52,399 nucleotides of DNA from Deltaproteobacteria bacterium (GTDB lineage Bacteria > Desulfobacterota > Desulfomonilia > Desulfomonilales > Desulfomonilaceae). The stretch covers positions 1 to 52,399 of the forward strand of contig VGSG01000018.1 of assembly GCA_016875095.1 (NCBI GenBank). The letters are read 5' to 3'. This document shows positions 32,158-40,470 of the stretch, piece after piece. The notes below the pieces were generated by a model, which was given only the letters and a program-made list of their open reading frames with translations, did not search any database and was not told where the DNA came from. Position 1 is the stretch's first letter, and the number at the start of each line of letters is the position of its first letter. Position numbers and translations under genes: made by a program.

Positions 32158-33486
32158 CTACGACGCGAATACGTTGAGGACAAGGCCGGATGAAAGTTTC
32201 GGATAGAAATACGTGGATTTGTGAGGCAGCTTGTGTCCAAGTTCCGCGGCTGCCCGGACTTGTTCAACTCGTGTCGGGTTCAGGACAAAACCGACCTGAA
32301 TCTCTCCCCTCTGGACCCGTTGGATGGCATCCGTAGCAGAAGGCGTGTATTCGATCAATCCTTCCGCATTGTGCGTATCGATGCCGAAGCCCACCCCCAT
32401 GACTATTTCCCTGAGTATGGTGACATCCAAATCCCGCAAGCTCGAAGGAACGGACGGGTCTATAAGCTGGTCCACGCACTGGAAGCTCTTCAGGCGCAGC
32501 AAATGGAAACAGGGCTCGCCCCGAACCGCCATCCCGTAGTTCCCGCTTTTCTGTGAGAGTGAGGCCACTCGCTTCACCAGCGCTACTTCTGAATCCCGGC
32601 GGCTTTCCGGTGAAAACGGGAACTCTTCGATATTGAAGAAGGGGCGCAACTTTTCGAGCACCGTTTCCACCTCCACGTCTCCCAGTTTAGTGATCATCCG
32701 ATGCGCCGGGAGAATGGTCAGGCCGGGGTGAGACATGGCCGTGAGATACATCATCACGTAATCCGGCCACTCTCCGAGGTCTGTTCTTCCCGAAGCTCTC
32801 ACTTCATCTCTGAATGCGAGCGAAGTTTCGTAACGGTGATGACCGTCGGCGATAAAGATGCTCCGGTCGGCAATCACGGCTTTGATCCGAGCCATAACGG
32901 CTTCGTCGTTGAGAGTCCAGGTGCGGTGAATAGTGCCCTGAGCATCGCGGGTCTCCTGCTCGGCTTTTGCGCTCATGAACGTCTTGTACTCACGGCGCAC
33001 CGTCTGCTCAGAGTCACTGAAAAGCGCGTGAATCGGTGTTATGTTCGTGAGACACGCGTGCATGAGCTTGAGCTGATCTTCTTTGGGGCCTTTGTACGTC
33101 TTCTCGTGCGGCAAGACTTTTCCCGGGCCGTAGTCATCCACTTTCACCAGCGCCACAAGCCCGTCGATGATCCTATACTCTCCCAGTGGATCAGCGAACT
33201 CCATCTGGTAAATGGTCATGCCCGCGCGAGGGGCCCTAACCAGAACGCCTTTCTCCAGCCATTCTTTCAGTGTCGCCGCCGCCCTGGTGTACCGATTGTC
33301 AACCGCTGAATCCGTAAGAAACTGCTTGCCGAGAACCACCCGAATTATGTTTAGCGGATGAGCCTGGTAGAAGCCCTCCTGCTCCTTGCGCGATATCACG
33401 TCGTAGGGCGGTGTAATGAGCCTGTTTAGTTGTCCCGCATGCTTTCCGTCATAATGCACCGGTTTGAATGGGATGATCTCTGCCAT
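32158..33486 (-). CDS. DUF1015 family protein
   Basis: A 442-residue protein of the DUF1015 family, recognised by the opening IIPFKPVHYD with LITPPYDVISRKEQEGFY, the segment VDDYGPGKVLPHEKTYKGPK, and IADGHHRYETSLAFRDEV, which carries the family's conserved D-G-H-H-R-Y. The biochemical function is not known. In several genomes it lies near amino-acid genes such as serA and serC, and here it heads the minus-strand block that includes the threonine genes. Confidence 0.85.
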   Translation of the reverse strand: MAEIIPFKPVHYDGKHAGQLNRLITPPYDVISRKEQEGFYQAHPLNIIRVVLGKQFLTDSAVDNRYTRAAATLKEWLEKGVLVRAPRAGMTIYQMEFADPLGEYRIIDGLVALVKVDDYGPGKVLPHEKTYKGPKEDQLKLMHACLTNITPIHALFSDSEQTVRREYKTFMSAKAEQETRDAQGTIHRTWTLNDEAVMARIKAVIADRSIFIADGHHRYETSLAFRDEVRASGRTDLGEWPDYVMMYLTAMSHPGLTILPAHRMITKLGDVEVETVLEKLRPFFNIEEFPFSPESRRDSEVALVKRVASLSQKSGNYGMAVRGEPCFHLLRLKSFQCVDQLIDPSVPSSLRDLDVTILREIVMGVGFGIDTHNAEGLIEYTPSATDAIQRVQRGEIQVGFVLNPTRVEQVRAAAELGHKLPHKSTYFYPKLSSGLVLNVFAS

Positions 33487-35839: not shown

Positions 35840-36685
35840 ATGGGAAAGCTGGTTGTATTTACTGATCTGGACGCGACTCTCCTGGATCCGGATGACTACT
35901 CGTGGACGGCAGCCACGGAAGCGCTGGCAACCCTAAAGCGCGTGAATGCGATCTTGTCGCTGGTTTCCAGCAAGACCTTTGCAGAGATGGCGCCTATTCA
36001 TAAGGCTCTTGGAATTGAAGATCCCTTTGTCACCGAAAATGGCGGCAGTGTGGTGGCGAGGGAAGGCTCAGCTCTTGCGGATGAGCTCAGACGTGACGAA
36101 GAATTTCCTAAAGCTGTTCGGGAGGGGAAGTGGCTTATCTTTCCGCAGGGAACAGCCTACAAAGACCTTGTGACGGCCTTGTCGGAAATCGCTGAAGTCC
36201 TAGGCTGTCCGTTGGTCGGATTCAATGCTCTATCCGTGAGGGAGGTGGCGCGGCTCACCGGGCTGAGCGAAGAAGAAGCCCAGAAGGCCAAAGATAGGCA
36301 GTTTGACGAGCCCTTTCTCGTGACCGACGACGCGTGGGAGCGTGAAGATCAGATCCGAGAAGCTGCGGCTGCGCGGGGCCTTGCGGTGGTGGCCGGGGGA
36401 CGCTTCTGGCACCTAATGGGTCACGGGGGCAAAGGCTCCGCGGTATCGCGGCTGATAAGGGCTTCTCGCCGAGTTTTCGGAGAGATTGTCACCGTAGGGC
36501 TGGGTGATAGCCCAAATGATTATCCTTTCCTGGAAATAGTGGACATCCCGGTGGTCTTGCGCGGCGCCCACAAGGCCGCTTCTCTACCGCCCAGCCTCGC
36601 TCGCGGCCTCTTCACGAAGCAATCGGGTCCGGTAGGCTGGAACGAAGCCATATTGCGAATTGTCTCAGGGTTAGATTCCGAGTAG
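35840..36685 (+). CDS. mannosyl/glucosyl-3-phosphoglycerate phosphatase family protein (HAD)
   Basis: A 281-residue HAD-IIB phosphatase. Motif I FTDLDATLLD has nucleophile D9 and D11; SLVSSKTFAEM and FVTENGGSVV follow the pattern of MPGP (YedP) enzymes; the motif IV segment VGLGDSPNDYPFLEIVD is intact. These enzymes dephosphorylate mannosyl- or glucosyl-3-phosphoglycerate to give the compatible solutes. The downstream GpgS-type gene makes the glucosyl form the likely substrate, as in known GpgS/GpgP pairs where GpgP is MPGP-like. The ATG at 35840 is chosen for the family opening; earlier in-frame starts would add residues without family features. Confidence 0.82.
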   Translation: MGKLVVFTDLDATLLDPDDYSWTAATEALATLKRVNAILSLVSSKTFAEMAPIHKALGIEDPFVTENGGSVVAREGSALADELRRDEEFPKAVREGKWLIFPQGTAYKDLVTALSEIAEVLGCPLVGFNALSVREVARLTGLSEEEAQKAKDRQFDEPFLVTDDAWEREDQIREAAAARGLAVVAGGRFWHLMGHGGKGSAVSRLIRASRRVFGEIVTVGLGDSPNDYPFLEIVDIPVVLRGAHKAASLPPSLARGLFTKQSGPVGWNEAILRIVSGLDSE

Positions 36686-36921
36686 CGCTTTGTGGTCTCA
36701 TTGTTATTTGGCGCGCTGAAAAACCGACTCGCACACTTGAGCATCTTACGGGTTACTGGAATATGGCCTCGGCAGCGCAGGCGGAGTCTGCTCAGCCCCG
36801 AATTGCGTTCGAGCTACGTTTCGGCCCCTAAGCTCTCTCGGAATCTACGCCGCGTCCGGGGTAGCCTCGGGGGTCATACGATCCAAATGGAATAATATCT
36901 TAGAAACGGAGGGGGTGAACA

Positions 36922-38151
36922 ATGAGCGATTTTTTGCAGAGAGGGCCGATCACCACGCTGCATATCCTGCGTGAGCGCGATCCAGAGTCCATAGAAGCGG
37001 AAATCGCCAGCCGAGCAAGATTACGACCCATAGCCCTTGTCTTACCGTCATTGATCTCGGAAATGGATTCCCCAGCTCTCGCGGGGATCCTCGATGTGCT
37101 CAAAGAAGTGGACTACCTTTCCGAGATTGTGGTCACCCTGGGACCAGCTGGTCCCGAAGAATTCCAACGCGCTCTCAAGTACTTCCAGCCCCTCCAAAAG
37201 GAGGAGCGGAAAGTTCGACTCATCTGGAACGACGGAGAACGCATCAACTCTCTTTACCGAGAGATGGATGAACAAGGGCTGTGCTGTGTGACACCGGGCA
37301 AAGGGCGGAGCGCTTGGATGGCTTATGGGTACGTGGTCGCGGAGAGGGATGCCTACGTGATCGCACTCCATGACTGCGACATCATCTCCTATGATCGAAA
37401 CCTCCTCAGCCGCCTAGTGTATCCTACGGTCATGCCGCAGCTCAATTACGAGTTCTGCAAGGGATACTACGCGAGAATCGCGGACCGCATGTACGGGCGG
37501 GTAACGAGACTATTGGTTACCCCCTTGATACAGGCGCTGATCACGATCGTGGGAAATATGCCCGTGCTCAATTACTTCAATTCGTTCCGGTACGCGCTGG
37601 CCGGCGAATTCTCCATGGTTGCGGATCTGGCTCGCGTGAACCGCATTCCCTCCGACTGGGGCCTCGAAGTGGGAGTCCTCGCGGAAGTATATCGGAACTG
37701 TTCGGTCAACAGAATCTGCCAGGTTGAGCTTTGCCAAAATTATGAACACAAGCACCAGACTCTCTCGCAGGAGGATCCGAGTAAGGGCCTCAATAAGATG
37801 GCGATCGATATCTGCCTAACTTTTTTTCGGGTCTTGCGGGGTGTTGGCGTGATATTAGGCGAGGACTTCTTCGGAACGCTGCGGGTTGCGTTCCTCGAAG
37901 AAGCCCAAACGTGCATGGCCATGTACCATGACGATGCCAGCATCAACGGGCTTCATTATGACCGCCACGAGGAAGCGGTGGCTTTCGAGATGTTCTCTGA
38001 AGCGATCCGCATAGCAGGCGATATTGTTCGAGAAAACCCGCTGGGACCGCCGCCGATCCCGAACTGGAATCGGGTGTTTGCGGCGATTCCGGATTTTGAC
38101 GAAAAGCTTGTTGAGGCTGTCGAACTTGATAATATAGGGTTTTTTGACTAG
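36922..38151 (+). CDS. GpgS-type glycosyltransferase (probable glucosyl-3-phosphoglycerate synthase, GT81)
   Basis: A 409-residue GT-A glycosyltransferase with no membrane helices. D151 and D153 in ALHDCDIISYD form the metal-binding D-x-D. The loop PGKGRSAWMAYGYVV, the segment YGRVTRLLVTPLIQAL, and GEFSMVADLARVNRIPSDWG follow the order seen in GpgS, which joins glucose from a nucleotide sugar to 3-phosphoglycerate. HKHQTLS near residue 286 is the usual His-containing loop. A strong site (GGAGGGGG) precedes the ATG. The phosphatase gene upstream supports the pathway. Mannosyl-3-phosphoglycerate synthase is less likely because its family is different. Confidence 0.75.
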   Translation: MSDFLQRGPITTLHILRERDPESIEAEIASRARLRPIALVLPSLISEMDSPALAGILDVLKEVDYLSEIVVTLGPAGPEEFQRALKYFQPLQKEERKVRLIWNDGERINSLYREMDEQGLCCVTPGKGRSAWMAYGYVVAERDAYVIALHDCDIISYDRNLLSRLVYPTVMPQLNYEFCKGYYARIADRMYGRVTRLLVTPLIQALITIVGNMPVLNYFNSFRYALAGEFSMVADLARVNRIPSDWGLEVGVLAEVYRNCSVNRICQVELCQNYEHKHQTLSQEDPSKGLNKMAIDICLTFFRVLRGVGVILGEDFFGTLRVAFLEEAQTCMAMYHDDASINGLHYDRHEEAVAFEMFSEAIRIAGDIVRENPLGPPPIPNWNRVFAAIPDFDEKLVEAVELDNIGFFD

Positions 38152-38235
38152 CGCTCCCGACGCCTTAAGACCTGTGCAGCAGCCGCTTCGGTTCAAATTA
38201 GCCGAATGGCAAGCTTGCCCTAAGTGGAGAAGACA

Positions 38236-39519
38236 ATGAAATATAGCAGTGCACTACGACCGTACGCAGTGAAGAGGCTGGAAGAAATCGAGAAAGCCGA
38301 TCTGGTGATCGGAATTCCGTGTTTCAATAACCAGACCACCATAACGCACGTGATCAAGATGGTTTCTCACGGCCTGCATGATTTCTACCGAGACCTGAAA
38401 CCGGTTATCATCGTATCCGATGGCGGTTCGACCGATGATTCACGTGACGTGGCAAAAGACTTCCAACTCAAACCCTGGCAAGAAAAGGTCGTCAGCATCT
38501 ATCGCGGGATGCCCGGCAAGGGCACCGCTCTTCGCATGGTCTTTGAGGCCGCCAACGTGCTCGATGCGCGGGCCTGCATGGTAGTGGATTCAGACCTGCG
38601 AAGCATCAGTCACGAGTGGGTCAAAAGGCTTATCGATCCGGTTCTCGAACATGGATACGATCTTGTGGCGCCGATTTATACCCGATACAAATATGACGGC
38701 ACCATTACCAACAACATCGTGTTTAACCTCGTGCAAGCGGTCTTCGGCAAGAGGGTTAGACAACCCATCGGCGGGGACTTCGCGTTCAGCAAAGATCTGG
38801 TAAGGTTCTATGCGTTCCACGATGTATGGGGAACGGACGTGGCCCGCTTCGGCATTGATGTATGGCTCACAGTTGAAGCAATTCTCAATGGGTTCAAGAT
38901 CTGCCAGTCGCATCTGGGGATCAAGATCCATGATGCCAAGGATCCGTCGGAGCACCTGGGGCCCATGTTCCGTCAGGTCGTGTACACGCTCTTTCAATTG
39001 ATGGAAGACAATGAAAAGACCTGGAAACGGACAAGCGGCGTTGAAGACGTGCCGGTCTTCGGAGAGCCCTCCGCGGAGGAACCCGAGCCGATTCAGGTGA
39101 ACTTCCGTAAATTGGTGAATTCGTTTCTGGCAGGCTTGCAACGCTTCGGCACGTTGTGGAGAGACATCTTCTGCCCCGATTGCTTCGCGGCGATCCAAGC
39201 CGCGGCCTCAATGGATCTGAATCGCTTTCGCCTCCCTGTGGATACCTGGGTTCGGATACTCTATGAACTTGCTGCAACCTATCATAACTGGCCGGACAAT
39301 CGTCGCCGCCTCGTGGACCTCATGACTCCCCTGTACTATGGCCGCGTGGCATCCTTCGTCAATGAAACCCGTGACATGGATTCTATCCAGGCGGAACGCC
39401 TCGTCCAAGAGCAGGCCCAATTCTTTGCCGACGCAAAAGACTATCTGGTGCAACTGTGGGATAACCCCCGCGCGTGCGACATCGGTTTCATGGAGGCCGT
39501 GGAAGACCTGTCCGTCTGA
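38236..39519 (+). CDS. glycosyltransferase resembling mannosylglycerate synthase (possible MggS)
   Basis: A 427-residue GT-A glycosyltransferase. It has a GT2-like nucleotide-sugar region VIIVSDGGSTDDSRDVAKDF and a D-x-D at D118/D120 (MVVDSDLRS). The later pattern PIGGDFAFSKDLV, RFGIDVWLTVEAILNGFKIC, KIHDAKDPSEHLGPM, and YELAATYHN matches, in order and spacing, what I remember of the GT78 mannosylglycerate synthase of Rhodothermus. Beside GpgS and GpgP genes it may mannosylate glucosylglycerate (MggS activity). A GGAG site six bases upstream fixes the ATG. Other hexosyl transfer remains possible. Confidence 0.65.
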   Translation: MKYSSALRPYAVKRLEEIEKADLVIGIPCFNNQTTITHVIKMVSHGLHDFYRDLKPVIIVSDGGSTDDSRDVAKDFQLKPWQEKVVSIYRGMPGKGTALRMVFEAANVLDARACMVVDSDLRSISHEWVKRLIDPVLEHGYDLVAPIYTRYKYDGTITNNIVFNLVQAVFGKRVRQPIGGDFAFSKDLVRFYAFHDVWGTDVARFGIDVWLTVEAILNGFKICQSHLGIKIHDAKDPSEHLGPMFRQVVYTLFQLMEDNEKTWKRTSGVEDVPVFGEPSAEEPEPIQVNFRKLVNSFLAGLQRFGTLWRDIFCPDCFAAIQAAASMDLNRFRLPVDTWVRILYELAATYHNWPDNRRRLVDLMTPLYYGRVASFVNETRDMDSIQAERLVQEQAQFFADAKDYLVQLWDNPRACDIGFMEAVEDLSV

Positions 39520-39582: not shown

Positions 39583-40470
39583 ATGACCGATTTCAAAAAA
39601 ATCGACCTTACCCATAAGCCCCTCTTTGACAGGATTTTCGCTGAAAACCCTCCCCAGGTCTCGGAGCTGACCTTTACCAACCTGTTCATGTGGCGGCATC
39701 GGAATCGCCCTGCATGGCGTGTTCACGACGGCTTCCTATTCATCGTGATGAGACCGGAAGAGGAGCCTGGCTTTGCTCTGCCTCCCGTGGGCAAAGGCGA
39801 TGTTCGCGCCGCCCTGGAGGAGTTGTCCGATGACTTGATGTCGTTAAGAATGGAGCCGCGCATCTCCCGCGCGGACAAAGCGTTCGTCGAAGCCCACGTT
39901 GATCGCAAGCGGTTCGAGGTTATTGAAGATCCTGCCAATCACGATTACGTGTACTTGACCCACGAGCTTATTGAGCTTCCTGGCAACAAGTTCCACCAGA
40001 AAAAGAATCACCTGAACAAGTTCATCAAGAACTACAAATACGAATATCAAACACTCGACACGGACCTGGTGGATTGTTTCCTGAATCTTCAAGAAGTCTG
40101 GTGCGAGCTGAAGGACTGTGACCTGACTCCGGGCCTCTTTCACGAAAACCAGGCAATCTGCCAGGCCCTGGCGAACTACGAGGATCTGGGATTCGAGGGA
40201 GGAGCGATCCTCATCGACAAGAAGGTGGAGGCTTTCGCATTAGGCGAGAAGCTCAACCCCGATACCGCGGTGATCCACGTGGAAAAAGCCAACCCTGACA
40301 TCCCCGGACTCTATGCCGCCATAAATCAGCAGTTCTGCTCGGAGCATTGGAACAACGTCACCTACATTAACCGGGAGCAGGATCTGGGGGTGGAAGGCTT
40401 AAGAAAAGCCAAGAAATCCTACCATCCTCACCATATGGTGGAGAAGTTCACACTTATTCGTAATTCGTAA
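39583..40470 (+). CDS. DUF2156 / LPG-synthase C-terminal domain protein
   Basis: A 295-residue protein of the DUF2156 group (GNAT-like fold found at the C-terminus of phosphatidylglycerol lysyltransferases). Visible segments are ELTFTNLFMWRHRNRPAWRV, LPGNKFHQKKNHLNKFIKNY, GGAILIDKKVEAFALGEKL and WNNVTYINREQDLGVEGLRK, which ends in KSYHPHHMVEKF. No membrane part is present, so it is a soluble stand-alone form, whose function is not known. It starts 63 bp after the glycosyltransferase gene with a GGAG site and may be cotranscribed with the solute cluster. Confidence 0.78.
   Translation: MTDFKKIDLTHKPLFDRIFAENPPQVSELTFTNLFMWRHRNRPAWRVHDGFLFIVMRPEEEPGFALPPVGKGDVRAALEELSDDLMSLRMEPRISRADKAFVEAHVDRKRFEVIEDPANHDYVYLTHELIELPGNKFHQKKNHLNKFIKNYKYEYQTLDTDLVDCFLNLQEVWCELKDCDLTPGLFHENQAICQALANYEDLGFEGGAILIDKKVEAFALGEKLNPDTAVIHVEKANPDIPGLYAAINQQFCSEHWNNVTYINREQDLGVEGLRKAKKSYHPHHMVEKFTLIRNS

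Follow-up and report, generated by a model that had tools for sequence, protein, structure and literature searches.

A probable glucosylglycerate cluster in a Desulfobacterota genome, with a third enzyme that is probably a direct glucosylglycerate synthase

We analysed a 52,399-nt stretch of a Desulfobacterota genome (the window; contig C18 of genome G000, strand +), in which an earlier note had placed three consecutive compatible-solute genes at 35840-39519. The open reading frames confirmed all three on the + strand at these positions. Our analysis indicates a real glucosylglycerate cluster, in which the third enzyme is probably to be reassigned from the mannosyltransferase MggS to a direct synthase of the Ggs type. 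We favour, with moderate confidence, the reading that the cluster makes 2-O-alpha-glucosylglycerate (GG) by two routes, GpgS/GpgP and Ggs. The three genes are as follows.

35840..36685, + strand: gene 1, HAD-IIB phosphatase, MPGP/GpgP-like (TIGR01486, PDB relatives, HAD motifs)
36922..38151, + strand: gene 2, predicted GpgS of the methanogen/Persephonella type, GT81 by literature (NF040724, PDB GpgS profile, GRVT)
38236..39519, + strand: gene 3, retaining GT-A glycosyltransferase with the fold of mannosylglycerate synthase (MGS), probably Ggs-type (AlphaFold2 model, Z score to MGS, profiles, Thermotogota homologues)

In the proposed pathway, whose substrates, product and physiological role are predicted from computed families, folds, motifs, gene recurrence and genome content, the GpgS encoded by gene 2 would transfer glucose from nucleoside diphosphate glucose to D-3-phosphoglycerate, and the gene 1 phosphatase would then take off the phosphate, giving GG. 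Gene 3 would transfer glucose straight onto unphosphorylated D-glycerate, as a one-step second route of the Ggs type, with ADP-glucose as the probable donor given the presence of glgC in the genome (477.5 bits, above the cutoff of 424.9). The cell would then use GG as a charged compatible solute against salt or nitrogen stress.

Families, fold and pocket of the three enzymes

Gene 1 had been called a HAD phosphatase of the MPGP/GpgP type, and this holds: it scores 215.9 bits against TIGR01486 (MPGP family; cutoff 164.75), and the HAD motifs FTDLDATLLD, SSKT and GLGDSPND are present and align across homologous loci. Its PDB relatives include E. coli YedP (1xvi, 2e-29) and Thermus MpgP (3ztw, 9e-28). 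For gene 2, the proposed GpgS identity was likewise upheld, and the sequence identifies it as a GpgS of the methanogen/Persephonella type. NF040724 (GpgS_Meth) matches 402 of 409 residues with 351.7 bits (E 5e-105), under an equivalog cutoff of 700 that was made for methanogens. A profile search of the PDB retrieved GpgS at 2e-7, with the mycobacterial GpgS proteins as closest sequences, and the GpgS acceptor motif GRVT is kept, G192, R193 and T195 being invariant in alignment A1 and aligned to the GRVT of GpgS. An AlphaFold2 model of gene 2 built from 8 sequences (predicted local distance difference test, pLDDT, 60) was not used. Homologues of gene 2 with 43-48% identity, on plasmids of marine and saline-soil bacteria, adjoin a HAD-IIB hydrolase, and those of Leisingera and Qingshengfaniella also adjoin a sugar phosphorylase; glucosylglycerate phosphorylase genes are frequently found beside gpgS/gpgP (PMC7178133). 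The annotation 'Glucosylglycerate synthase' is in use for GT81 (PMC8790579).

For gene 3, sequence and structure point to different nearest relatives. The AlphaFold2 model (pLDDT 93.6), compared with Rhodothermus MGS as the earlier note had proposed, gave a strong full-length match (2y4m; Z 35.9, root-mean-square deviation 3.0, 355 residues aligned) that includes the C-terminal helical part, and Foldseek agrees with MGS as the whole-length match; against GpgS, Z was 21.4 across 224 aligned residues. A sequence-profile search of solved proteins ranks GpgS first (4e-13) and MGS second (7e-6). The suggested GT78/MGS resemblance is thus retained for the fold, while in sequence gene 3 lies closest to GT81 GpgS. 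Among family models, gene 3 scored 23.9 bits against PF21969 (MGS_GT; gathering score 27), which 17 of 43 gene 3 homologues match at E≤0.01 (best 1e-10); it scored 74.5 bits against PRK13915 (GpgS; cutoff 262) and 49.5 bits against PF00535, with no match to the MggS equivalog NF041101 in the family search. An ordinary GT2 enzyme is ruled out by the profile matches and the fold. A GT81 GpgS equivalog was also rejected, on the PRK13915 score and on the motif PIGGD, which stands where GpgS has PLSGE.

The acceptor site resembles that of MGS. Gene 3 reads DGTIT (T160-I161-T162) where GpgS has GRVT, and lacks the Arg preceding Val186 of GpgS. The acceptor carboxylate is contacted by Val186-Thr187 in GpgS and by Ile138-Thr139 in the MGS-glycerate complex (PMC2581804). 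Since the GpgS-type Arg is missing before an MGS-like Ile-Thr pair, the site is consistent with unphosphorylated glycerate as acceptor. The sugar donor is not settled by the motifs because two Ser residues of GpgS are replaced by Gly, Ser210 by Gly183 in PIGGD and Ser81 by Gly67; Ser81 has been argued to exclude guanine and so to block GDP, and Gly in place of the PLSGE Ser to permit mannose (PMC2581804). Asp212 is shared with MGS, where GpgS has Glu232. All inspected pocket residues are identical in the Thermotogota homologues.

The same features bear on the alternative that gene 3 is itself an MGS, using GDP-mannose and D-glycerate, with mannosylglycerate then being produced in the cell alongside GG. 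We consider this improbable, even though Rhodothermus MGS is the best structural match and shares the Ile-Thr acceptor pair and Asp212: the two proteins are just about 14% identical, the PF21969 score falls short, the closest sequence relatives of gene 3 are GpgS proteins, and the pairing with MggS in Thermotogota described below needs GG, not mannosylglycerate.

Thermotogota homologues and the mannosylglucosylglycerate route

The earlier note had suggested a complete mannosylglucosylglycerate (MGG) route, with gene 3 as an MggS-like mannosyltransferase, and neither proposal was borne out. A gene 3 homologue was found in 65 of 103 Thermotogota genomes searched. Two of these genomes, which we take to be Petrotoga mobilis SJ95 and Thermotoga maritima MSB8, were informative; their homologues are 38-40% identical to gene 3 over nearly the full length (Petrotoga, 39%). 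In T. maritima the homologue adjoins a GT4-type gene, a GH38 alpha-mannosidase and an ABC transporter, and it is the GT4-type neighbour that passes NF041101, the NCBIfam model of MggS (680.7 bits, cutoff 640). Of 20 Thermotogota loci, 12 have an MggS-type GT4 adjacent to or near the gene 3 homologue. A search for MggS in nine genomes at E≤1e-5 returned P. mobilis and T. maritima only, with no match in the window's genome. Because MggS is a GT4-type neighbour of the gene 3 type and is unmatched here, the MGG route is unsupported; the compatible-solute theme of the earlier note is supported, with the prediction now pointing to GG instead of MGG. Rhodopirellula baltica accumulates MGG (PMC3694870), so mesophilic MGG producers do exist.

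In P. mobilis, gpgS overlaps a gene for a 505-aa protein that is weakly similar to the GT4-type MggS and has no BLAST similarity to gene 3; from its position and from what is reported for Petrotoga, we take this gene to be MggA. The P. mobilis GpgS belongs to GT81 and is of the mycobacterial type (PRK13915 385.5 bits, above 262), and the genome also carries an MggS orthologue (40% identity). MggA had no match in the window or the fetched loci, to which the search was limited. MggA (by position) and MggS (by NF041101) are both GT-B enzymes for which BLAST shows no relation to gene 3, and either identity was therefore rejected for gene 3.

Neither of two GpgS profiles found a GpgS in T. maritima. 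Because MggS needs GG, the gene 3 type is best read as its supplier, and the Thermotogota homologues are best read as Ggs. By this comparison, gene 3 of the window is most likely a Ggs that would transfer glucose to D-glycerate. We also observed that the Thermotogota locus L203:6612-12590, like L195, L198, L199, L201, L204-L206 and L212, brings together an ABC sugar transporter, a GH38 alpha-mannosidase, MggS, the gene 3 homologue and an RpiR-like regulator, which looks like uptake, breakdown and synthesis of MGG combined in one operon.

Recurrence, competing roles and surroundings in Desulfobacterota

A relative of gene 3 was present at E≤1e-10 in 50 of 60 related genomes, and a tree divides these relatives into the gene 3 type and a paralogous clade B. 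In a survey of 40 fetched homologous loci, all three genes were present, in differing orders, at L024, L025, L027 (Desulfomonilaceae-like), L042, L043, L056, L058 and L063, and GpgS and gene 3 only at L026 and L057. Chance does not explain the linkage: other Desulfobacterota carry the trio with its genes reordered, and the gene 3 copies concerned fall at three places in the gene 3 tree. Of 12 loci centred on GpgS itself, 8 have the phosphatase next to it and none has gene 3 there, weak gene 3 matches in these loci being GpgS; we therefore regard GpgS/GpgP as the shared core, to which gene 3 is added. Across 28 genomes, 13 carry the gene 3 type and GpgS, 2 gene 3 only, 4 GpgS only and 9 neither (Fisher p 0.006, uncorrected for kinship). 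The two with the gene 3 type and no GpgS at E≤1e-40, G045 (91% complete) and G051 (98%), argue that gene 3 need not depend on the GpgS product.

Several points weigh against gene 3 as a Ggs. The Petrotoga homologue is identified as Ggs by elimination and from what Fernandes et al. (2010) reportedly described, the Thermotogota proteins are just 38-40% identical to gene 3, and GG in T. maritima could instead come in via the neighbouring ABC transporter. PIGGD carries the Gly argued to permit mannose, and gene 3 has a paralogue in the same genome, at 38% identity. It is also odd that two redundant routes should be clustered, an arrangement less parsimonious than a sequential pathway.

Because of that oddity, the main rival is a second-step role, in which gene 3 acts after GpgS/GpgP and adds to GG either mannose, giving MGG, or glucose, giving glucosylglucosylglycerate; gene 3 and its Desulfobacterota clade would then be a new MGS-fold second-step enzyme independent of the GT4-type MggS. 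Clustering of the trio at three separate places in the gene 3 tree, the MGS-like fold with the PIGGD Gly, and the loss of the GDP-blocking Ser81 at Gly67 all fit such a role. We nevertheless think it unlikely, since the NCBIfam-defined MggS is a GT4 enzyme and a neighbour of the gene 3 type, the gene 3 type occurs without detected GpgS (G045, G051, T. maritima), and GG-making loci are mostly without an adjacent gene 3.

MscS and CLC channels, Na/Ca exchangers, NhaA and a Na/H exchanger were found near several relatives' gene 3 loci; transporters lie near 8 of 25 gene 3 loci and near none of 13 loci of the paralogue (p 0.03, a biased comparison, as the query transporters were drawn from gene 3 loci). 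These ion and osmotic transporters speak against GG as precursor of a polymer or glycolipid such as mycobacterial methylglucose lipopolysaccharide, with gene 3 extending GG. Mycobacterial GpgS does initiate a polymer of this kind (PMC2674218), but no polymer-type genes adjoin the trio, and we hold this very improbable.

Other relatives of the three genes were noted. The paralogue in the window's genome (L004, G000:C51:7370-8623) belongs to clade B, whose members (L004, L044-L047, L050, L052-L055) have an altered nucleotide-site motif, CDNNSPDDT and QGKG; the clade occurs widely in the class, with a CheY-like receiver protein encoded directly after the gene in many genomes. Two fusions of 1314 and 1331 aa (L060:297-4238, - strand; L061:1814-5806, - strand) join a gene-3-like domain to a C-terminal GT4 domain resembling the trehalose synthase TreT, in genomes without detected GpgS, and are perhaps two-step glycosylglycerate or disaccharide synthases. 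A divergent GpgS-like family of about 455 aa, 32-35% identical to gene 2, lies near and opposite gene 3 homologues at L028:2046-3416, L029:6877-8238 (with a weak Osmo_MPGsynth match) and L032:6386-7780; it also occurs in many Desulfobacterota at weaker E-values.

Two further features were read around the trio.

38224..38229, + strand: ribosome-binding-like GTGGAG ahead of ATG 38236 (sequence read)
39583..40470, + strand: LPG_synthase_C (DUF2156) gene, directly 3' of gene 3 (PF09924, 7e-52)

Gene 3 is listed as an open reading frame of 38224-39519; ATG 38236 is the better start because GTG 38224 sits within the GTGGAG stretch. The start of gene 2, ATG 36922, is also backed by a ribosome-binding-like stretch, and for gene 1 translation may begin further upstream, at GTG 35783. 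Genes 1 and 2 are truly separated by 236 bp; their counterparts in the relative L025 overlap by 4 bp. The LPG_synthase_C gene, with ATG 39583 favoured over 39532, was absent from all 40 homologous loci searched and is probably not part of the glucosylglycerate system. Just upstream of the trio, on the opposite strand, lies a DUF1015 protein (32158-33486, -). A promoter and terminator scan gave no signal clearly exceeding shuffled sequences.

Comparison with known glucosylglycerate and mannosylglycerate systems

Discussion of GG has centred largely on thermophiles, cyanobacteria and mycobacteria. Here GG, not MGG, is the predicted solute of a Desulfobacterota lineage, and GpgS-type genes occur in 103 of 297 sampled Desulfobacterota genomes, about a third. 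An assignment is also offered for a widespread uncharacterised MGS-fold family (present in the 65 Thermotogota genomes above), for which resemblance to MGS does not predict MggS.

The closest parallel would be Persephonella marina, which we take to have two alternative GG routes, GpgS/GpgP and Ggs; like it, the cluster would pair a GpgS and its own phosphatase with a direct synthase, gene 3 being likened to the P. marina Ggs by role. In P. marina, the accession numbers of gpgS and gpgP are consecutive (ABX75857/ABX75858; PMC2874817). The cluster shares homologues of gene 3 with the MGG genes of P. mobilis (GpgS and MggA) and T. maritima (Ggs and MggS), but in those organisms the mannosyl step is assigned to GT-B enzymes, MggS or the MggA adjacent to gpgS, and the P. 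mobilis GpgS is of a different subtype from gene 2. With the GT78 MGS of Rhodothermus marinus, gene 3 has in common the complete fold with its C-terminal helical part, the Ile-Thr glycerate contact and the Asp in place of GpgS Glu232, and differs in its 12-14% identity, in PIGGD vs PLGGE and in its sub-cutoff MGS_GT score. In the PDB, no sequences lie nearer to gene 2 or gene 3 than the mycobacterial GT81 GpgS proteins; gene 3 keeps their DxD, conserved Lys and His, but unlike them lacks GRVT and PLSGE and has the extra helical C-terminal part.

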